Source: Candidatus Fermentibacterota bacterium (GTDB lineage: Bacteria; JAFGKV01). From it: DNA of 24,433 bases. Of this stretch, positions 8,974-17,380 are shown one piece after another (within the stretch, counting starts at the first letter, position 1; the number at the start of each line of letters is the position of its first letter). Location: the NCBI GenBank assembly GCA_030620115.1, contig JAUXFG010000047.1, positions 1-24,433 of the forward strand, read 5' to 3'. The notes beneath the pieces were generated by a model. The model worked only from the letters and a program-made list of their open reading frames with translations, did not search any database and was not told the DNA's origin. The translations under genes were made by a program, and so were the position numbers.

Positions 8974-9765
8974 ATGACCGGCAAGGCGCTCCCCTCCACG
9001 GATGTGTGGCGGATTATTCTTCATGGCGATCAAGAGCCCCACTTCAATATGGCCTTGGACCAGGCGCTGCTGGATTCAGTGGTGGCGGGCCGCGCTCCCC
9101 CCACATTACGCTTCTATGGCTGGACAAAGGCGGCGATCACCGTAGGCTATCATCAGAATCCTGAGAAGGTTCTCAATATGGAGGCGGTGCGCGCCGCAGG
9201 CATCGAGGTGCTGAAGAGACCCACTGGCGGACGGGCGGTGCTCCACGGAGATGATCTCACCTACTCCATCACACTGCCGCGGGCGGATCTCTTGGCGAGC
9301 AGCGTGATCGTTTCGTATCGATCCCTGAGCGAAGCCTTGGCAGCAGGGTTGGCCCAGGCCGGAGTACACGTTACCTTGGCACGTGGAAAGGGAATTCATA
9401 TGGGCCCGGGGCCCCAGCCGTGCTTCACGAGTACCGCTCGCTACGAATTGACCTCGAATGGCAGGAAACTGGTGGGAAGTGCACAAAGAAGGATGCGTGG
9501 AGGGCTCCTTCAGCAGGGCAGTATCCCGCTCAGAGATGGAGGCGTCAGGCTCCGGGGCCTTCTGCCGGATGGTCTCGATCTTGGAGGATTAGAAAACCGC
9601 TGGACCACGGTGGAAGAGATTACCGGGCGTGCGGTGGAATGCATGTCGCTGGCTAGCGCCGTAGCGGAGGGTTTCTGTCGCCAGTGGGGAGCGCGGATGG
9701 TGACACATCCGCCCCATGACGACGAACTCCGCGACGCACAAAGGATTGTTTATGGAGGAGAATGA
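8974..9765 (+). CDS. Lipoate-protein ligase / octanoyltransferase family protein
   Basis: This 263-aa protein belongs to the LplA/LipM/LipB fold family that attaches lipoyl or octanoyl groups to carrier proteins. Motifs are HFNMALDQALLD at the N-terminus, RFYGWTKAAITVGYHQNP, the lipoate-binding signature KRPTGGRAVLHGDDLTYS, and CFTSTARYEL followed by GRKLVGSAQRR, with the conserved lysine that contacts the lipoyl-AMP or acyl intermediate. The length fits a single-domain ligase or octanoyltransferase rather than long E. coli-type LplA (about 337 aa), so LplA versus LipM activity cannot be decided by eye. The neighbouring gcvH makes GcvH the obvious substrate. The start at 8974 has a poor ribosome binding site. 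The 3' end overlaps the next gene by 14 nt. Confidence 0.9.
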   Translation: MTGKALPSTDVWRIILHGDQEPHFNMALDQALLDSVVAGRAPPTLRFYGWTKAAITVGYHQNPEKVLNMEAVRAAGIEVLKRPTGGRAVLHGDDLTYSITLPRADLLASSVIVSYRSLSEALAAGLAQAGVHVTLARGKGIHMGPGPQPCFTSTARYELTSNGRKLVGSAQRRMRGGLLQQGSIPLRDGGVRLRGLLPDGLDLGGLENRWTTVEEITGRAVECMSLASAVAEGFCRQWGARMVTHPPHDDELRDAQRIVYGGE

Positions 9766-10171
9766 CTCAGGAAAACCCTCACCACTCCTTGGAAAGCTGG
9801 CAAAGGAAGTGGTTGATCGAAGCCTTACCGCACCTGCGGTGATGTTTCTGGAGTCAACGAAACCCTTGAGTTTTCTCGGCAGCCAGGTTATGGTATTCTT
9901 CGCGCCTTTCGTGAAAGCCTTCTGGACTGGCGCCAGCTATGATCAATTGGCGGAACTTCTCGAGGATAGGGAGAACGTCGAGAGACTATTGCAGGAAATA
10001 GAACGGCTTGAGGCCGAGCAGAACGCTCAGCGCAAAGCGGAGAAGGCGAAGCGCAAGGCGGAGAAAGCGCGGCGCAAGGCGGAGAAAGCGCGGCGCAAGG
10101 CGGACGAGATGGCACTCGGCATCGCTCAGAAGAAGGAGAGGCGCTTATGGCCACTGAAACGAAAGAAATAA
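9752..10171 (+). CDS. Small Lys/Arg/Ala-rich heptad-repeat protein, function unknown
   Basis: This is a 139-aa protein from ATG 9752, which overlaps the end of the ligase gene. An in-frame codon at 9716 would lie deeper in that gene. The first 70 residues look folded, with a hydrophobic stretch around LSFLGSQVMVFFAPFVKAF that could be a membrane-associated helix. They are followed by an acidic helix ending ENVERLLQEIERLEAEQ and then a strongly basic helix of RKAEKAR-type heptads. The tail ends RRLWPLKRKK. The 3' end overlaps the start of the GlmL-like gene by 25 nt, so the two are probably translationally coupled. I know of no assigned function. An adaptor, or a membrane anchor for the neighbouring ATPase, is a guess from gene order only. 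Confidence 0.75.
   Translation: MEENDSGKPSPLLGKLAKEVVDRSLTAPAVMFLESTKPLSFLGSQVMVFFAPFVKAFWTGASYDQLAELLEDRENVERLLQEIERLEAEQNAQRKAEKAKRKAEKARRKAEKARRKADEMALGIAQKKERRLWPLKRKK
10031..10105 (+). repeat. In-frame 21-bp tandem repeats encoding a basic heptad
   Basis: Three 21-bp units start at 10031, 10052 and 10073; the second and third are identical (beginning CGCAAGGCGGAGAAAGCG) and the first differs at a few positions. A partial fourth unit begins at 10094. Each encodes RKAEKAR or a variant. Unit length is a multiple of three, so copy-number changes would preserve the frame and simply lengthen the basic helix. Confidence 0.85.
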
Positions 10172-11985
10172 GGCCCGAAGAGCTGCAGAATATTCTGGCC
10201 ACCGACTGCGGGAGCACCACCACGAAGGCCATCCTCATTGAGAAGGAAGGGGATGAGTACCGGCTGAAGGTTCGTGGTGAGGCGCCAACCACGGTCGAAG
10301 CTCCTGCAGAAGATGTGACCAGGGGGGTGCTCAACGCGGTGGGCGAGGTCGAAGAGCTCACCCATCGAACCATGCTGAAGGGAGATGGAATCCTCAAGCC
10401 CAAACAAAATGGCGATGGGGTGGATATCTACATGTCCACATCCAGCGCCGGTGGCGGCCTCCAAATGATGGTGGCGGGCGTGGTCAAAAGCATGACGGGA
10501 GAGAGCGCGCAACGCGCGGCACTGGGCGCCGGCGCCATCGTCATGGACATACTTGCTTCCAACGACGGGCGACTCCCCCATCAACAGATCGAACGTATCC
10601 GGCATCTTCGGCCGGATATGATCCTCCTCTCCGGCGGTATCGATGGCGGTACCACTACCCATGTGGCTGAATTGGCGGAGATCATAGCCGCCGCCGATCC
10701 GAAACCACGGCTGGGGCAGGGCTACAAGCTTCCGGTTATCTATGCCGGGAATAAAGAGGCCGCCGAAATGATTACGCAGATCCTTGGCGACAAGGTGGAG
10801 CTTTTTGTCGTCGATAACATCCGCCCTGTCCTGGAGAGAGAAAACCTTGGCCCGGCAAGAGAGAAGATCCATGAGCTTTTCATGGAACATGTCATGCAGC
10901 AGGCCCCGGGTTACGCCAAGCTCATGAGCTGGACCGATGTGCCCATCATGCCGACTCCGGGGGCGGTGGGGCTCACTATTCAGACCATCGCCGAACAACA
11001 GGGTATCGACGTGGTCGGTGTCGACATCGGAGGCGCCACAACCGACGTATTCAGCGTGTTCTCCGGCATCTTCAATAGAACGGTCAGCGCCAATCTCGGC
11101 ATGAGCTACTCGGTCTCCAACGTCATGGCGGAAGCCGGATTGGACAATGTGATGCGCTGGGTCCCGGTCGACATGGATGAGCTCGACCTTCGAAATCGTA
11201 TCAAGAACAAGATGATCCGGCCCACCACGATACCACAGATGATGGACGAGTTGATCATCGAACAAGCAATGGCCAGGGAAGCGCTCCGTCTTGCATTCGT
11301 GCAGCATAAGGCCTTCGCGGTGGGACTCAAGGGTATCCAACAGGAACGGACCATCTCGGATACCTTCGACCAGAAAGGCACCGGAGAGACATTGGTCGAC
11401 ATGATGAGCTTGAAACTCCTTGTTGGCTCCGGCGGTGTGCTCTCCCACGCCCCCAGGCGGAATCAGGCGGCCATGCTGCTGGTCGACTCCTTTCTCCCTG
11501 AGGGCTTCACGCATCTTGCGGTGGACTCAATCTTCATGATGCCCCAGCTTGGTGTGCTCTCCACGGTACACCCTAGTGCAGCAGCCGAGGTGTTCGAACG
11601 AGACTGTCTCATCCACCTCGGTACCTGCATCGCCCCGGTAGGCACCATAAAGCCAGGCAAAACCATGCTCACGTTGGACATTGAGTTGCCCACCGGCAGT
11701 CAACACCTCGAGATGAAACTCGGTGAGCTCAAGCTGCTCCCCCTTGGCGTCGGGGAACAAGCCAAGGTCACGGCCCGCCCCGCTCGCGGGCTGGATCTCG
11801 GGGCCGGAAAGGGGCAGGAGATGGAGGAAGTAGTGCAGGGCGGTGTTGTTGGCGTCGTCATAGACACCCGAGGTCGTAACCCCTTCGTCCTCCCGGTGGA
11901 AGCCAAAGAGCGGGTGCCGAAGCTTCTCGAGTGGATCGAAGCCCTGGATGCCTACCCGATGTCGGCTTTTTCCGCGATCAAATGA
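10147..11985 (+). CDS. GlmL/MutL-type ASKHA ATPase (glutamate mutase accessory family)
   Basis: This 612-aa protein has the sugar kinase/HSP70/actin ATPase signature of the GlmL/MutL family (the glutamate-mutase accessory protein, unrelated to mismatch-repair MutL). Phosphate-1 is ATDCGSTTTKAIL near the N-terminus, and phosphate-2 is VVGVDIGGATTDVFSV around residue 300. Between them are ASSAGGGLQMMVAGVV and DMILLSGGIDGG. GlmL of clostridial glutamate mutase is about 460 aa; this form has roughly 130 additional C-terminal residues containing ARGLDLGAGKG and GGVVGVVIDTRGRNPFVLP. Family members accompany B12-dependent mutases and are thought to act as reactivating chaperones, but no mutase subunit lies in this window. 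ATG 10147 follows AAGGAG and overlaps the preceding gene. The next gene begins 53 nt downstream, suggesting one operon. Confidence 0.85.
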   Translation: MATETKEIRPEELQNILATDCGSTTTKAILIEKEGDEYRLKVRGEAPTTVEAPAEDVTRGVLNAVGEVEELTHRTMLKGDGILKPKQNGDGVDIYMSTSSAGGGLQMMVAGVVKSMTGESAQRAALGAGAIVMDILASNDGRLPHQQIERIRHLRPDMILLSGGIDGGTTTHVAELAEIIAAADPKPRLGQGYKLPVIYAGNKEAAEMITQILGDKVELFVVDNIRPVLERENLGPAREKIHELFMEHVMQQAPGYAKLMSWTDVPIMPTPGAVGLTIQTIAEQQGIDVVGVDIGGATTDVFSVFSGIFNRTVSANLGMSYSVSNVMAEAGLDNVMRWVPVDMDELDLRNRIKNKMIRPTTIPQMMDELIIEQAMAREALRLAFVQHKAFAVGLKGIQQERTISDTFDQKGTGETLVDMMSLKLLVGSGGVLSHAPRRNQAAMLLVDSFLPEGFTHLAVDSIFMMPQLGVLSTVHPSAAAEVFERDCLIHLGTCIAPVGTIKPGKTMLTLDIELPTGSQHLEMKLGELKLLPLGVGEQAKVTARPARGLDLGAGKGQEMEEVVQGGVVGVVIDTRGRNPFVLPVEAKERVPKLLEWIEALDAYPMSAFSAIK

Positions 11986-12038
11986 CGAGTCGAACCATGC
12001 ATCTAATGACGGAAACGAGCAGTATAAGGAGGTAAGCT

Positions 12039-13166
12039 GTGGCGCATGCATATACCCCCGGCCTCCGTGTGGCCGATCTCACGACAGTGCAAAAAGAACG
12101 CCGCCTCCCCCTCCCCGGGGATGTCTTGGTTTCCGTGGGGGATGTGGTGGAAGCAACGCAGGTGGTGGCAAAAACAGAGCTGCCTGGTAATGTAGAGAGT
12201 GTGAACGTTGCCAATCGGCTCGGCGTTCCCCCTGAAGACGTGCCTCATGCCATGCTGAAGAAGGAGGGTGATTCCGTTGAAAAGGGCGAGATCATCGCCC
12301 AGAGCAAGAGCTTCTTCGGCCTCTTCAAATCCTCATGCATGGCAACCGTCAAAGGAACCATCGAGAACATATCTTCCGTCACGGGGCAGGTTCTGCTTCG
12401 TGAGCCCCCGCTCCCCGTGCAGGTGGCGGCATACGTCGATGGCGTCGTTACCGAGGTCATGCCCCGAGAGGGCGTGGTAGTGGAGACGCCCGCATCCTTC
12501 ATTCAGGGAATATTCGGGATTGGTGGCGAAGTGAACGACCAATTGACCATGGTGAGCTCAAGCCCCGACCAGATCCTCGACGCCGGCGATTTGAATGAGT
12601 CTCATCAAGGCAAAATCGTGGTGGGCGGTTCCTTGGTCACCGCCCAGGCCATCAAGAGAGCGGTTCAATTGGGCGTTACGGGCATTATTTCCGGCGGACT
12701 GAACGACAAGGATTTGAAGGAATTCCTCGGATACGATCTTGGCGTTGCCATAACCGGGAATGAAGACAAGGGCATTACCGTGGTCGTCACGGAAGGCTTT
12801 GGCGAAATAGGCATGGCGGGTGGGACATTCGAACTTCTGAAGCGTTGCGAGGGCAAACAATGCTCCATGAACGGAGCGACGCAAATCAGGGCAGGCGTCA
12901 TCAGGCCCGAAGTGGTGATACCACGGAAGGACCGTGCCGTTGCCGCTGAGGGAGGCGACTCCACCGAGATGGGCAATATGGCAATAGGGAGCCCGGTGCG
13001 CGCCATCCGCCAACCTTACTTCGGCAAGATCGGCACAGTATCGGCCCTCCCTCCCGAGCTCCGGAAAGTCGAATCAGAGACCCTGGTACGAGTCCTGGAG
13101 ATTACCTTTGAGGATGATTCCAAGGCAATAATTCCACGGGCAAACGTGGAACTGATTGAACACTAG
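12039..13166 (+). CDS. Barrel-sandwich / KOW-domain protein of unknown function
   Basis: This 375-aa protein starts at GTG 12039, supported by AAGGAGG at 12026-12032. Residues about 20-160 show repeated short motifs such as GDVLVSVGDVVEATQVVAKTE and KEGDSVEKGEIIAQS, typical of barrel-sandwich-hybrid (lipoyl/RnfC-like) domains, but with no MKM biotinylation motif and no evident lipoylation lysine. The middle contains VVGGSLVTAQAIKRA, GIISGGLNDKDLKEFLGYDLG and a Cys pair in CEGKQCSMNGA. The C-terminal 60 residues (GSPVRAIRQPYFGKIGTV...) look like a KOW/SH3-like fold. I do not know a function. Its tight placement behind the GlmL-like gene suggests a functional partnership. The domain assignments are inference by pattern. 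Confidence 0.8.
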   Translation: MAHAYTPGLRVADLTTVQKERRLPLPGDVLVSVGDVVEATQVVAKTELPGNVESVNVANRLGVPPEDVPHAMLKKEGDSVEKGEIIAQSKSFFGLFKSSCMATVKGTIENISSVTGQVLLREPPLPVQVAAYVDGVVTEVMPREGVVVETPASFIQGIFGIGGEVNDQLTMVSSSPDQILDAGDLNESHQGKIVVGGSLVTAQAIKRAVQLGVTGIISGGLNDKDLKEFLGYDLGVAITGNEDKGITVVVTEGFGEIGMAGGTFELLKRCEGKQCSMNGATQIRAGVIRPEVVIPRKDRAVAAEGGDSTEMGNMAIGSPVRAIRQPYFGKIGTVSALPPELRKVESETLVRVLEITFEDDSKAIIPRANVELIEH

Positions 13167-13169
13167 GCA

Positions 13170-13190
13170 GGGCAGGCTTGCAGCCTGCCC
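13170..13190. repeat. Perfect 9-bp hairpin between KOW gene and histidine kinase
   Basis: GGGCAGGCT (13170-13178) pairs with AGCCTGCCC (13182-13190) around a 3-nt loop, starting three bases after the stop at 13166. There is no T-tract. It could be a weak terminator or processing site separating the GlmL/KOW operon from the kinase gene, or a dispersed palindromic element. Confidence 0.6.
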
Positions 13191-13211
13191 GGATTGCCAC
13201 GAGGTGTAGAA

Positions 13212-14486
13212 GTGAGCCCGTTCATGATCGGCAGTATCGTGACGGGCTTCATGATTGGTTTTATCCTGGCGGCGATCCTGGTGAGGGTGTCGTGGGGGCG
13301 CAGACGTCTCACGCAGACCTCCAAGATCGGGGGTTCCGTCGAAGCCTGGGCGACGCTGCTTCACCAGACTCTCGGAGAGATGAAGAACCAGCAGGTCGCG
13401 GCCGATTCTCAGCGAAGACAGGCAGAGGACCGGGCATCGCAAGCCGAACTGCTCTATCGGGTCATCATAGAAAGCGTGCCCAGCGGCATCGCCACGTTTG
13501 ATGGGTATGGTTCACTGGTCACTGCCAATCCCGTGGCCCAACATCTTCTTGATCTCGAAGGAACCCGGCTTCCACCTGAATTGACATCACTTCTGGAGAA
13601 AGCCCTTCACGGGGAGGAACCTCCCTATGTGGAAATGGAATTCGGGGCACAGGAACACTCGGTGCCCGTGGGTGTGCAGGTAAGGCCTTTGAAGGGTGCC
13701 TTCACCGCATCAGGCGCCGCCGGAGTCGTAGTTGTCCTGGTCGAACTCACCGAACTCCGGAGATTGCAAACTAGGGCCAGACTCATGGAGGAATTGGCCG
13801 ATCTGGGCCAACTTGCCGCAGGGATCGCCCACGAGTTCAGGAATGCCACCGGCGTCCTCCGAAGCTCCGCTGAATACCTCCGGACCAAGGTCGACAATGA
13901 AGCTTCCGAGGCGGTGGAGGATCTTCTGCGAGAGACAGAGCGACTCTCCCGCGTGACCACGGATCTTCTTGATTTTGCGCGGCCATGGGAAAGCAATCTC
14001 GAACCTGTCGAGATGGATGAACTCGTACAGGAAGTGGTCGACCAGTTGCGGGAGCTGTACGTGGACTCTCGGATCACCACGGAGCTTCGCTGCCACGGCA
14101 TGACCGTGTACGGGCGAAGTTCGGTCCTCTCCAGGGTTGTCGACAATCTCGTCCGTAATGCGCTGGAGGCAAGCGATGCCCCCGCTACTGCCATACTACG
14201 GTCCAAGGTTCTGACGAGGGAAACGGGGCGTTGGTTCAAACTCCAGGTCTTGGATCACGGGAAAGGGATTGAGTCAAGGCATCCAGAGGAACTTTTTCAA
14301 CCTTTCAGGACTACGAAACCCGATGGAACAGGCATGGGACTCACTCTTGCACGAAAAATCGCCCGTCTCCATGGAGGGGATGTTTCTTTACGGAATCGAG
14401 AAGGCGGAGGGGCAATCGCCGAACTCGACTTGCCCCTTGATCGCGAACAGGAATCGTTCGCCATGTCTGGGCGAACCCCAAGGTGA
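13212..14486 (+). CDS. PAS-domain sensor histidine kinase (NtrB/PilS-like)
   Basis: This is a membrane-anchored sensor kinase, 424 aa from GTG 13212, which follows GAGGTG (13201-13206). An in-frame TTG at 13194 lies against the hairpin and lacks a ribosome binding site. One transmembrane helix (about residues 5-27) is followed by a coiled linker, a PAS domain (about 85-180; IIESVPSGIATFDG) and a HisKA domain with H207 in AGIAHEFRNATGVL. The usual Pro after HExRN is replaced by Ala. The ATPase domain shows DNLVRNALEAS (N box), LDHGKGIE (G1) and GTGMGLTLARKIARLHGG (G2). It ends just where the oppositely oriented pilin coding region meets it, with the NtrC-type regulator beyond, so the two are the probable pair. 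True PilS has more membrane helices. Confidence 0.92.
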   Translation: MSPFMIGSIVTGFMIGFILAAILVRVSWGRRRLTQTSKIGGSVEAWATLLHQTLGEMKNQQVAADSQRRQAEDRASQAELLYRVIIESVPSGIATFDGYGSLVTANPVAQHLLDLEGTRLPPELTSLLEKALHGEEPPYVEMEFGAQEHSVPVGVQVRPLKGAFTASGAAGVVVVLVELTELRRLQTRARLMEELADLGQLAAGIAHEFRNATGVLRSSAEYLRTKVDNEASEAVEDLLRETERLSRVTTDLLDFARPWESNLEPVEMDELVQEVVDQLRELYVDSRITTELRCHGMTVYGRSSVLSRVVDNLVRNALEASDAPATAILRSKVLTRETGRWFKLQVLDHGKGIESRHPEELFQPFRTTKPDGTGMGLTLARKIARLHGGDVSLRNREGGGAIAELDLPLDREQESFAMSGRTPR

Positions 14487-14812
14487 CAATGAGCATCCAC
14501 ATTCGTAATGGCGTACCCATCGAATTCGTACTCCGTGCCGAATGGACACTGAGGAGTTTGGCTCAGATAATCCGGAATCAGACTCTGGATACTAGGGGCC
14601 GGTGATAAATGGTCAGCAAAGTAGACGCCTGCTGCCGAGTTCGTCATGGCCATATTGCCAAGGCAGAATGCCTGGTGCGCGGTATCCATAACCTCCAGGT
14701 AATACGGCAACAGAAGAGCGGCAAGGATAAGAAGGATTGCCATGACGAGTACGAGTTCTACCAGCGTCATACCACGAGGGCGCCATGTCCTCTGCTGAGC
14801 ACCGCGGTACAT
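14297..14812 (-). CDS. Type IV pilin-like / pseudopilin protein
   Basis: The minus-strand ATG at 14812 has AAGGAG 7 nt upstream. The N-terminus is a class III prepilin signal: a basic leader ending RPRG, cleavage G14|M15, then TLVEL with the conserved Glu at +5 and a hydrophobic helix (VLVMAILLILAALLLPYY). The globular part has Cys at 50, 89 and 109. The last two bracket a CPFGTEYEFDGY...C loop typical of small pseudopilins, which usually end a few residues later. Here the frame stays open for about 60 more residues, antisense to the kinase gene, so the real or ancestral C-terminus is probably near residue 112 (about 14477). The product would be processed by a prepilin peptidase not in this window. 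Confidence 0.75.
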   Translation of the reverse strand: MYRGAQQRTWRPRGMTLVELVLVMAILLILAALLLPYYLEVMDTAHQAFCLGNMAMTNSAAGVYFADHLSPAPSIQSLIPDYLSQTPQCPFGTEYEFDGYAITNVDAHCHLGVRPDMANDSCSRSRGKSSSAIAPPPSRFRKETSPPWRRAIFRARVSPMPVPSGFVVLKG

Positions 14813-14893
14813 GAGGCCGCTCCTTCGCGCACCACTCGTGTTTCACAAACGCGGAAATCATGGATGAGAGACTCCGGCTTGATACACCTGCGC

Positions 14894-14908
14894 GCTGATA
14901 TTATGCCA
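14894..14908 (-). promoter_or_regulatory. Candidate sigma-54 promoter for the pilin gene
   Basis: On the minus strand the sequence reads TGGCATAATATCAGC. It has the invariant GG and GC dinucleotides at exactly the -24/-12 spacing and a perfect TGGCA -24 box; the -12 box (CAGC) is weaker than TTGC. Transcription would start near 14882, about 70 nt before the pilin ATG. An inverted repeat ATCA-N5-TGAT at 14921-14933 lies upstream and could be part of an activator site. The adjacent GAFTGA-type regulator makes the site more plausible. Confidence 0.55.
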
Positions 14909-14962
14909 GACACAACAAGGATCATTCGGTGATAAATCGAACACCTCGCAAGGTAGGATATC

Positions 14963-16360
14963 ATGCGGACATTGGCTAATACGAACGACATGGTCCTTCT
15001 GGTGGAAGACCGTGAGACCATGCGTCGCTCCTTGAGAAGGCTCCTTGCCGAGGCGGGATATACAATCGAGGAAGCAGCTGACATCTCATCCGCAAAGGCC
15101 AAACTCTCCTCTCATACACCGGATATAATCCTCAGTGATTTACGCCTCCCGGATGGAGAGGGTACCGATCTCATTCCCGAGGCCCTGCAGCAGCCGAAGC
15201 CACCACCGGTGATTCTCATCACGGCATATGGATCAGTCGAAACTGCGGTTCAAGCCATGAAATCAGGGGCTTATGATTTCCTCACCAAACCAGTGGATTC
15301 CCAACATCTCCTCCTTCTGGTGAAAAGAGCCATTGAGGAAACCAGGATCAAACGGCAGTACGAGCTGCTAGCCAGGGAACACGAGTCTGGTGCGCCCATC
15401 CTGATCGGCGAGAACACGCAGTTCCGAGCGGTGATGAAAAGGGCATCCACTGCGGCCCCCACCGATACCACGGTCCTCATTCTGGGCGAGAGTGGGACCG
15501 GGAAAGAACTTCTGGCACGCATAATCCATCAGCAAAGCCCCAGAAGGGATGCAAGTTTCATCCCCGTGAACTGTGCGGCCATTTCCGCTTCTCTGGCAGA
15601 GAGTGTCCTCTTCGGACATGAACGCGGCGCGTTCACAGGCGCCACGACCCAACACCGGGGGTGGTTCGAGCTTGCACATGGGGGGACTCTTCTCTTGGAC
15701 GAGATCGGAGACCTCGAACTTCCCCTTCAAGGCAAGCTTCTCCGAGTACTGGAGGATGGCGAATTACAGCGTGTAGGGGGATCGCGATGGATCAAGGTCG
15801 ATGTGCGAATCATTGCCGCCAGCAACAGGGCTCTACTGGATGAGGTGGATGCAGGCAGATTCAGACGTGATCTCTACTATCGCTTGGCGGTGTTTCCTCT
15901 CACCATTCCACCCCTGAGGGATCGTTTGGATGACGTGCCTCTTCTGGCTGAGTACTTCCGAAGCATTCACTCCGGGAGATTCGGCAAGCACGACCTTTCA
16001 TTCCCCGATGGCGTATTGGATGAGCTGAAGAACTACCGTTGGCCGGGAAACGTTCGCGAGCTGAGCAACATCGTCGAGCGAGCGGTGATCCTCGCCAAGA
16101 CCGGCAAGATGAACCGTGATCTTTTTCCTGTCATTCCCGTGATGCAGCCCATGCCCCGGCAGACAATATCGGAAGTCCCAAGTAATCTCAAAGGCTACGT
16201 GGCCGACGCCGTGGAACGAATCGAGCGAGATGCCATTGTAAGGGCATTGGAGCAGACTTCCGGGAATCGATCACATGCCGCCCGAATGTTGGGGATCACG
16301 TACCGAACGCTTCTGAACAAGTTGAAAGCCTTCGGCATGGACGTTGATAATATGCCTTGA
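14963..16360 (+). CDS. Sigma-54-dependent response regulator (NtrC/PilR family)
   Basis: This is a 465-aa activator with three domains. The receiver (about 10-125) has acidic residues E15/D16, phospho-acceptor D59 in ILSDLRLPDG, and the conserved Lys in DFLTKPVD. The AAA+ domain (about 145-380) has Walker A GESGTGKE (175-182), the sigma-54-contacting GAFTGA loop (222-227), Walker B GTLLLDEIGD (241-250) and the RWPGNVRELSN motif. The C-terminal Fis-type helix-turn-helix is around GNRSHAARMLGITYRTLLNKLK. Phosphorylation by the neighbouring kinase would trigger oligomerisation and open complexes at sigma-54 promoters, such as the candidate before the pilin gene. The start at 14963 has only a weak upstream purine stretch. 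Confidence 0.95.
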   Translation: MRTLANTNDMVLLVEDRETMRRSLRRLLAEAGYTIEEAADISSAKAKLSSHTPDIILSDLRLPDGEGTDLIPEALQQPKPPPVILITAYGSVETAVQAMKSGAYDFLTKPVDSQHLLLLVKRAIEETRIKRQYELLAREHESGAPILIGENTQFRAVMKRASTAAPTDTTVLILGESGTGKELLARIIHQQSPRRDASFIPVNCAAISASLAESVLFGHERGAFTGATTQHRGWFELAHGGTLLLDEIGDLELPLQGKLLRVLEDGELQRVGGSRWIKVDVRIIAASNRALLDEVDAGRFRRDLYYRLAVFPLTIPPLRDRLDDVPLLAEYFRSIHSGRFGKHDLSFPDGVLDELKNYRWPGNVRELSNIVERAVILAKTGKMNRDLFPVIPVMQPMPRQTISEVPSNLKGYVADAVERIERDAIVRALEQTSGNRSHAARMLGITYRTLLNKLKAFGMDVDNMP

Positions 16361-16390
16361 GAACCCTCGACAGAAGGATGGACTACGCAT

Positions 16391-17380
16391 ATGCCAGAAC
16401 ACAAGCGCCTCAAAGGGCGCGACCTGCTTCTTACCACGGATTGGCGCAAGGAAGAAATCGAGATTGCGCTCCAATGGGCAACACGCCTCAAGGAGCTCCG
16501 CAGGCTCGGTATTCCACACATGAACTTGCTCCCAGGAAAGACGATCTTTCTTCTTTTCTTCGACAAATCCACCAGGACCCGGAACTCCTTCGAGGCGGGG
16601 ATAACGCAACTTGGCGGGCACGCGCATTTCATCGCCGCCGAAACATCTCAACTCGCCCATGGCGAGAGCCCCAAAGACATGGGCATCATACTATCGGGGT
16701 ACGGTGAGGCTATCGCCATTCGTCACGATCTCGTGCCCGGTGAGGGACAGGCCTATATGCGGGAGGTTGCACGTCACGCCACGGTTCCCGTGCTCAATAT
16801 GCAATGTGACATCGACCATCCATTTCAGATGCTTGCCGATCTTTTGACTTTGCGTGAGCAGTTCGGAGAGAATACCTCGGGCCTGAAGGTTGCCGTCACA
16901 TGGGCATACGCGCCTTCCTACGCCAAGCCTCTCAGTGTGCCTCAGGGTCTCCTCATGCTCCTCCCACGCTTTGGCATCGATGTGGTTCTTGCCCATCCTC
17001 CCGAATACCGCCTCCTTCCGGAAGCCTTGGAGCTGGCGCGCAAAGGAAGCGCAGAGGGAGGTGGAACGATCTCTCTCGCCTCTTCCATGGAGGAAGCGGC
17101 AGAAGGCTGCCACGTGGTCTATGCCAAGAGCTGGGGAGCCGCCAAGCTTCTGGAAAACCCCGAGGAATCATTGGCTGTAGCGAGGCAATACAAGCAGTGG
17201 ATCTGCGACGAGCGGCTCATGAGCATTGCCGGGCCTGACGCCAAATACATGCACTGCTTGCCGGCCGATCGGGGTAACGAGGTCTCGAATGAGGTGTTGG
17301 ACGGGCCTCGCTCGCTCATCTATCCCGAGGCGGAAAACCGGCTGCACACCGCCAAAGCGGTCATGGCACTCACCATGTAG
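16391..17380 (+). CDS. Ornithine/acetylornithine-type carbamoyltransferase
   Basis: This is a 329-aa member of the aspartate/ornithine carbamoyltransferase family, which transfers a carbamoyl group from carbamoyl phosphate to an amine acceptor. The carbamoyl-phosphate loop is KSTRTRNSFE (STRTR 60-64). HPFQ at 143-146 replaces the usual HPCQ/HPTQ. The C-terminal motif is HCLPADRG (288-295) rather than the HCLPAFHD-like form of anabolic OTCase. The acceptor-binding region reads YAKSWG (K246-G249) instead of DxxxSMG; KSWG-type loops are known from the acetylornithine/succinylornithine branch. The acceptor therefore cannot be named from sequence: ornithine, N-acetylornithine and another amine are all open. 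An AAGGA lies somewhat far (12 nt) from ATG 16391. No other arginine gene is nearby. Confidence 0.85.
   Translation: MPEHKRLKGRDLLLTTDWRKEEIEIALQWATRLKELRRLGIPHMNLLPGKTIFLLFFDKSTRTRNSFEAGITQLGGHAHFIAAETSQLAHGESPKDMGIILSGYGEAIAIRHDLVPGEGQAYMREVARHATVPVLNMQCDIDHPFQMLADLLTLREQFGENTSGLKVAVTWAYAPSYAKPLSVPQGLLMLLPRFGIDVVLAHPPEYRLLPEALELARKGSAEGGGTISLASSMEEAAEGCHVVYAKSWGAAKLLENPEESLAVARQYKQWICDERLMSIAGPDAKYMHCLPADRGNEVSNEVLDGPRSLIYPEAENRLHTAKAVMALTM

Follow-up and report, generated by a model that had tools for sequence, protein, structure and literature searches.

Among described proteins, the relative of the ATPase encoded by the locus presented here is GlmL/MutL, the accessory protein of methylaspartate mutase (PF13941, NF040745, TIGR01319), with which it shares the ASKHA core and the GSTTTKA and DIGGATTD motifs, and whose Pfam model (MutL) it matches over all 450 positions. 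Unlike GlmL, this ATPase falls below the curated GlmL cut-offs, carries an extra domain of 125 aa and resides in a genome without the tested mutases, and it is tied instead to the genes on either side of it and to a membrane protein family, DUF6754 (PF20539). ASKHA proteins which dock at the membrane and serve a membrane machine are known from the FtsA/PilM type, and these may provide a working analogy for the ATPase, although they belong to a different family and no FtsA/PilM match was obtained for it in a Pfam scan. The third protein of the locus and a fused paralogue have a barrel-sandwich core in common with the N-terminal domain of RnfC and NqrA (PF13375, PF05896), but the former has no redox domains, continues into swivel and KOW domains, and remains far below the full-length rnfC model (12.7 bits, cut-off 245.95). 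The part following its barrel-sandwich domain (residues 131–296) may resemble, in its predicted fold, the swivelling domain of the RraA/phosphohistidine type, at about 12–16% identity.

The locus is part of a stretch of 24,433 nucleotides (the window) from a genome of 4.1 Mb that is 98% complete. It consists of three genes, referred to as the trio, with the following features:

8974..9765, plus strand: lipoate-protein-ligase-family gene, a neighbour, but no fixed member of the module (Pfam LplA-B_cat; neighbourhood counts)
9752..10171, plus strand: gene 1 ("coil"), 139 aa (open reading frame, alignment of 29 homologues)
10147..11985, plus strand: gene 2, extended MutL-family (PF13941) ASKHA ATPase, 612 aa (Pfam MutL, 2.9e-128)
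11608..11982, plus strand: C-terminal extension of gene 2, 125 aa, with the motif GGVVGxxxDxRGRxPF (homologue alignment, Pfam scan)
12026..12033, plus strand: ribosome binding site of gene 3, AAGGAGGT (sequence)
12039..13166, plus strand: gene 3 ("bsh"), GTG start, 375 aa (alignment of 52 homologues, AlphaFold2, Foldseek, VIA-align)
13170..13190, plus strand: perfect 9-bp hairpin directly 3' of gene 3, without a T run (fold computation)

Gene 1 overlaps the ligase gene by 14 nt (ligase stop at 9765) and gene 2 by 25 nt (gene 2 start at 10147), and gene 3 follows gene 2 after 53 nt; an alternative in-frame ATG at 9716 would give gene 1 a length of 151 aa. The reading frames, overlaps, gap and ribosome binding site are all as given in a preliminary description of this DNA, which also singled out proteins of 375 and 139 aa. 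Both sizes hold, for gene 3 and gene 1 respectively, but neither of them is the ATPase. The 46-nt stretch around the hairpin (13160–13205) folds with −23.3 kcal/mol (z −3.0), and the hairpin could possibly be a transcript end or an attenuator; as it lies directly 3' of gene 3, the trio unit may end there. Each of the three proteins is conserved between phyla, with identities among homologues of 47–77% for gene 3, 64–84% for gene 2 and 30–77% for gene 1, and none is therefore a chance reading frame. Elsewhere in the window, the trio is followed at 13194–17380 by genes for a PAS histidine kinase, a sigma-54-type response regulator and an ornithine/aspartate carbamoyltransferase-family protein, in the same order as in the close relative L025, and a 318-aa reading frame without any NCBIfam match is located ahead of uvrA (290–1246).

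The gene 2 product matches Pfam MutL with residues 16–487 (profile 1–450; 428.9 bits, cut-off 27). TDCGSTTTKA, DIGGATTD and GSGG are invariant among the 28 aligned homologues, confirming the presence of the CGSTTTKA and DIGGATTD motifs noticed earlier, and the phosphate-1, phosphate-2 and adenosine motifs of ASKHA ATPases are all intact. By these motifs the protein is an ASKHA ATPase, for which ATP hydrolysis is predicted. Its scores against the three curated NCBIfam GlmL-type models all lie under the cut-offs, with 237.1 bits for the GlmL equivalog NF040745 (cut-off 475), 183.6 bits for the GlmL family TIGR01319 (204.05) and 220.5 bits for Or-4, the GlmL-related ornithine protein NF040744 (600). 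The C-terminal extension, initially put at about 130 aa, comprises the 125 residues after the MutL match, and none of the models in the Pfam scan claims it. When the extended-MutL profile was compared with PDB sequences, no convincing match was obtained. Only two cysteines are invariant in the ATPase (28 homologues). A quick tree places the extended MutL sequences apart from two classical MutL sequences; since the classical branches are very long, only this separation is used here.

For gene 3, an AlphaFold2 model (52 homologues, mean pLDDT 87.5) and fold comparison predict a barrel-sandwich domain at residues 10–130 approximately, the swivelling beta/beta/alpha domain (RraA/phosphohistidine-like) at residues 131–296, and a KOW/SH3 domain at residues 313–375. 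The swivel domain matches RraA with a Z score of 9.1 (rmsd 3.8 Å, 129 residues), which is close to what the best hits reach by chance, and the last domain matches SPT5 KOW with a Z score of 8.8 (rmsd 1.1 Å, 51 residues). The C-terminus shares the KOW fold, and any function given to it would be predicted from the fold alone. Both the barrel-sandwich N-terminus and the KOW-like end proposed beforehand are thus backed by structure prediction and fold comparison, and the reported lack of a biotin or lipoyl motif agrees with a Biotin_lipoyl score of 19.3 bits, under the cut-off of 22.1 and spanning 16 residues. Matches to RnfC_N and NQRA_N are weak (22.2 bits, below cut-off; 25.6 for RnfC_N), as are the only ones found in a search of PDB sequences (RNA polymerase beta-prime and SPT5 KOW). 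The alignment of 52 homologues contains no invariant cysteine. The N-terminal tail of gene 3, AHAYTPGL, is nearly invariant despite being modelled with low confidence, and it may be a binding tail.

Gene 1, which has no Pfam family, had been described as a basic heptad protein. The heptads are real (KAEKARR), but they make up a basic C-terminal tail that varies among relatives, while conservation in the alignment of 29 homologues is confined to about 80 residues (10–92). This part holds a PAIMFLESxKPLSFxGSQxMVFF-type motif (in a looser form, PAxxFLExxxPLSxxGSQ). Hydropathy gives no clear full transmembrane helix; the motif might be a monotopic or re-entrant membrane segment, and the product is probably membrane-associated. 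The heptad tail is coded at 10030–10110 by near-identical 21-nt units (gcgcaaggcggagaaagcgcg-like), likely a recent repeat expansion. Recurrent neighbours of gene 1 in several phyla are c18, a family of 72 aa, and c10, a small membrane protein weakly matching YcxB; in many loci c10 comes ahead of gene 1 (examples at L029:3525-4194 and L144:1642-4758).

A scan of named genomes returned 492 relatives of gene 3, and neighbourhoods were taken from the best 80 of these 492, whose records carry the labels Eisenbacteria, Zixibacteria, WOR-3, Edwardsbacteria, Coatesbacteria, Poribacteria, Latescibacterota, Gemmatimonadetes, Hydrothermota and others. MutL was found upstream of gene 3, on the same strand and within the fetched stretch, in 42 of these best 80 loci, and gene 1 was upstream of MutL in 28 of the 36 loci having room for it. 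Many loci continue beyond the trio with four genes, encoding a DUF6754 protein (PF20539) and three proteins referred to as c7, c6 and c4, which together are called the membrane set.

Neither Pfam nor NCBIfam has a match for c7, c6 or c4, and their profiles gave no convincing match among PDB sequences. According to hydropathy, DUF6754 has an N-terminal hydrophobic segment followed by a fibronectin III domain and another two membrane segments, c6 has a soluble domain between two membrane segments, c7 has about five segments and c4 three to seven. The structure model of DUF6754 is poor (pLDDT 68), and the matches listed in the fold search are nearly all to the fibronectin III domain, the remainder being modelled too poorly to be of use. 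Homology of c6 to the DUF6754 domain was considered and rejected (profile comparison probability of 1%). None of the seven proteins of trio and membrane set matches a PADLOC anti-phage defence model. Outside the window itself, DUF6754 occurs at seven places in the same genome, six times within a complete membrane set and once as a lone gene, and the sets are on other contigs than the trio. The six paralogous DUF6754-c7-c6-c4 sets are L142, L143, L144, L145, L146 and L147 (G000 contigs 47, 51, 46, 20, 11 and 5), and are surrounded by unrelated genes with no obvious common function.

Co-occurrence was assessed in 241 bacterial genomes from about 190 families, using gene 1, extended MutL, gene 3, DUF6754 and c6 as markers. 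These were found in 59, 60, 59, 63 and 63 genomes, respectively; 55 genomes have the full complement of five, 175 have none of them, and 11 are mixed cases. The 59 genomes with gene 3 come from 48 families, and all of them have DUF6754, while 58 have extended MutL, 58 have c6 and 57 have gene 1. Among the mixed cases, the membrane set occurs without MutL in G009, without gene 3 and MutL in G060, G079 and G219, without gene 3 in G032 and without a gene 1 match in G092 and G179, and G089 has MutL and gene 1 but neither gene 3 nor the membrane set. Fisher tests give p values from 1e-45 to 1e-52, which ignore relatedness and overstate the evidence because the genomes are not independent. A better argument comes from the variety of gene orders and from the separate pairings. 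The five markers are gathered in a single same-strand cluster of 5.3–8.2 kb in at least 20 genomes, and these clusters show four gene orders. Of 58 genomes, 42 have MutL directly ahead of gene 3, gene 3 and DUF6754 are at most 5 kb apart on one strand in 27 of 59, and a copy of gene 1 is directly upstream of DUF6754 in 9 genomes. Full-length gene 3 is present once per genome, whereas the same 59 genomes contain 123 copies of DUF6754, with more than one copy in 31 of them and a maximum of seven.

The genome of the window also encodes a protein of 985 aa (G000:C160:17137-19956; L140:7132-10089, minus strand), a fusion that joins a MutL domain to a gene-3-like barrel-sandwich/swivel protein without the KOW end. 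RnfC_N matches this paralogue above the cut-off (29.6 against 25.6), and relatives carry one to two similar MutL fusions. No DUF6754 set lies beside the fusion. Together with the presence of extended MutL and gene 1 in nearly all gene 3 genomes and the position of MutL ahead of gene 3, the fused paralogue backs the proposal of the preliminary description that the three genes form a functional unit; their homologues were not found to be unlinked in most genomes.

That the genes of the trio and of the membrane set belong together is well supported. The reading we prefer, to which we assign a probability of roughly 0.55 based on genome content, neighbourhood and fusion, is that the trio is the ATPase module, soluble in the cytosol, of a hitherto undescribed membrane machine containing DUF6754, c7, c6 and c4.

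The Pfam MutL domain of gene 2 (429 bits) could also indicate the function of GlmL, in which case the ATPase would be the reactivating chaperone of an adenosyl-B12 mutase and gene 3 its exchange partner. This is most improbable, given the scores under all three GlmL-type cut-offs, the separation from classical MutL in the tree and the content of the genome. Searches there found no methylmalonyl-CoA mutase (PF01642) and no glutamate mutase E subunit (PF06368), and 18 of the 22 B12-binding matches have a radical-SAM CxxxCxxC cysteine motif, the other four being one MetH, one corrinoid protein of 213 aa and two matches that are weak or spurious; lysine and ornithine mutases were covered through the B12-binding domain alone. 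Furthermore, in 7 of the 241 genomes the sole MutL matches are low-scoring and without the C-terminal extension, and gene 3 is absent from all seven. A role as B12-mutase chaperone was therefore rejected for the tested families by the NCBIfam cut-offs, the two mutase-family searches and inspection of the B12-binding proteins, and the missing mutase partner remarked on earlier is borne out to the same extent. The ATPase was not found to be always beside mutase subunits, which leaves the unit standing. The neighbours of classical MutL in G052 and G033, meant as a positive control, encode an aminotransferase and luciferase-like monooxygenases and provided no clean mutase control. The earlier guess of a link to carrier-protein or cofactor maintenance, with the trio maintaining the glycine cleavage system, lipoate or a barrel-sandwich carrier protein, came from the gcv genes and lipoate ligase directly upstream in the window; it could also draw on the barrel-sandwich domain of gene 3 and on gcvPB being upstream in 14 of 42 loci. 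Here too the reading is very unlikely, since the gcv neighbourhood is restricted to certain lineages and missing from most Zixibacteria, Coatesbacteria, Planctomycetota and other loci, the position of the ligase varies and is directly ahead of gene 1 in the window and L025 only, and the biotin/lipoyl score of gene 3 is below cut-off over its 16 residues. The gcv and lipoate neighbours are probably a matter of local synteny, and the constant partner is instead the DUF6754-type membrane set, which was out of sight for the preliminary description owing to its location elsewhere in this genome.

An ATPase module linked to RNA, ribosomes or transcription, for instance one coupling synthesis to membrane insertion of DUF6754 proteins, would use the KOW and swivel (RraA-like) domains for binding to RNA or RNA polymerase, in line with the closeness of the KOW domain to SPT5/NusG, the RraA match and the basic tail of gene 1. 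We regard it as unlikely, as Z scores of 8–9 are near background in such searches, KOW/SH3 and swivel folds are known outside RNA biology (UPF0107 protein, M28 aminopeptidases, PetP), and the trio is strictly tied to the membrane set. It is quite unlikely that the genes form a redox or ion-translocating complex with an RnfC/NqrA-like gene 3 and an activating ATPase of the kind that activates 2-hydroxyacyl-CoA dehydratase. The RnfC_N and NQRA_N matches of gene 3, the stronger one of the fused paralogue and the multi-pass membrane partners point in this direction, but the barrel-sandwich domain is all that is shared, the membrane partners match no known redox subunit, and the invariant cysteines amount to none in gene 3 and two in the ATPase. 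There is similarly little likelihood that the co-occurrence reflects only the shared heritage of one large clade, with the trio functionally unconnected to the membrane set: relatedness among the positive genomes is possible, FCB-like phyla account for many of the named loci and the counts carry no tree correction, but the contiguous cluster of 20 genomes appears in four gene orders, and the separate pairings of gene 1 with DUF6754, gene 3 with DUF6754 and MutL with gene 3, as well as a fusion, would then have to be accounted for.

The reading of the trio as the ATPase module of a membrane machine draws on conservation, co-inheritance, clustering, fusion, intact nucleotide motifs, the lack of the tested mutases and the predicted folds. 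From the protein families and the anatomy of the genes we further infer a physical complex, docking at the membrane and the direction of action. Gene 1 would be placed on the inner face of the membrane by its conserved hydrophobic motif and would recruit the products of genes 2 and 3. The MutL-type ATPase and the barrel-sandwich/swivel/KOW protein would form a complex, which is proposed because the two are fused in the paralogue. Binding and hydrolysis of ATP would then lead to a conformational change by which the DUF6754 complexes are assembled, activated or gated, and several membrane complexes in a cell would share one trio. More tentatively, and with slightly less than even odds, a single ASKHA-ATPase module would energise or assemble several DUF6754-c7-c6-c4 complexes across dozens of families, an ATPase of the B12-enzyme-chaperone type having been recast as a motor or loader.

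Pfam, NCBIfam, PADLOC and the open-access papers searched yielded no system that matches (most subscription papers being outside this scope), and no paper in the open-access literature was found to name DUF6754, PF20539 or PF13941. Nor is the module described in the retrieved passages of a paper that deals with novel families in FCB phyla (PMC9727166). While the ATPase is from a known superfamily, the module as a whole may be new in kind.

A protein filed in databases near the helpers of B12 mutases is hereby redirected to a membrane system, and DUF6754 and three nameless membrane families gain a shared partner. The result is a seven-gene module, with five members checked by genome content, which is almost all-or-nothing across many bacterial families. 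If the proposed reading is true, an undescribed membrane machine would be present in dozens of bacterial families, many of them from uncultured FCB-like phyla, and a basic cell function of these large uncultured phyla may be hidden in the module.
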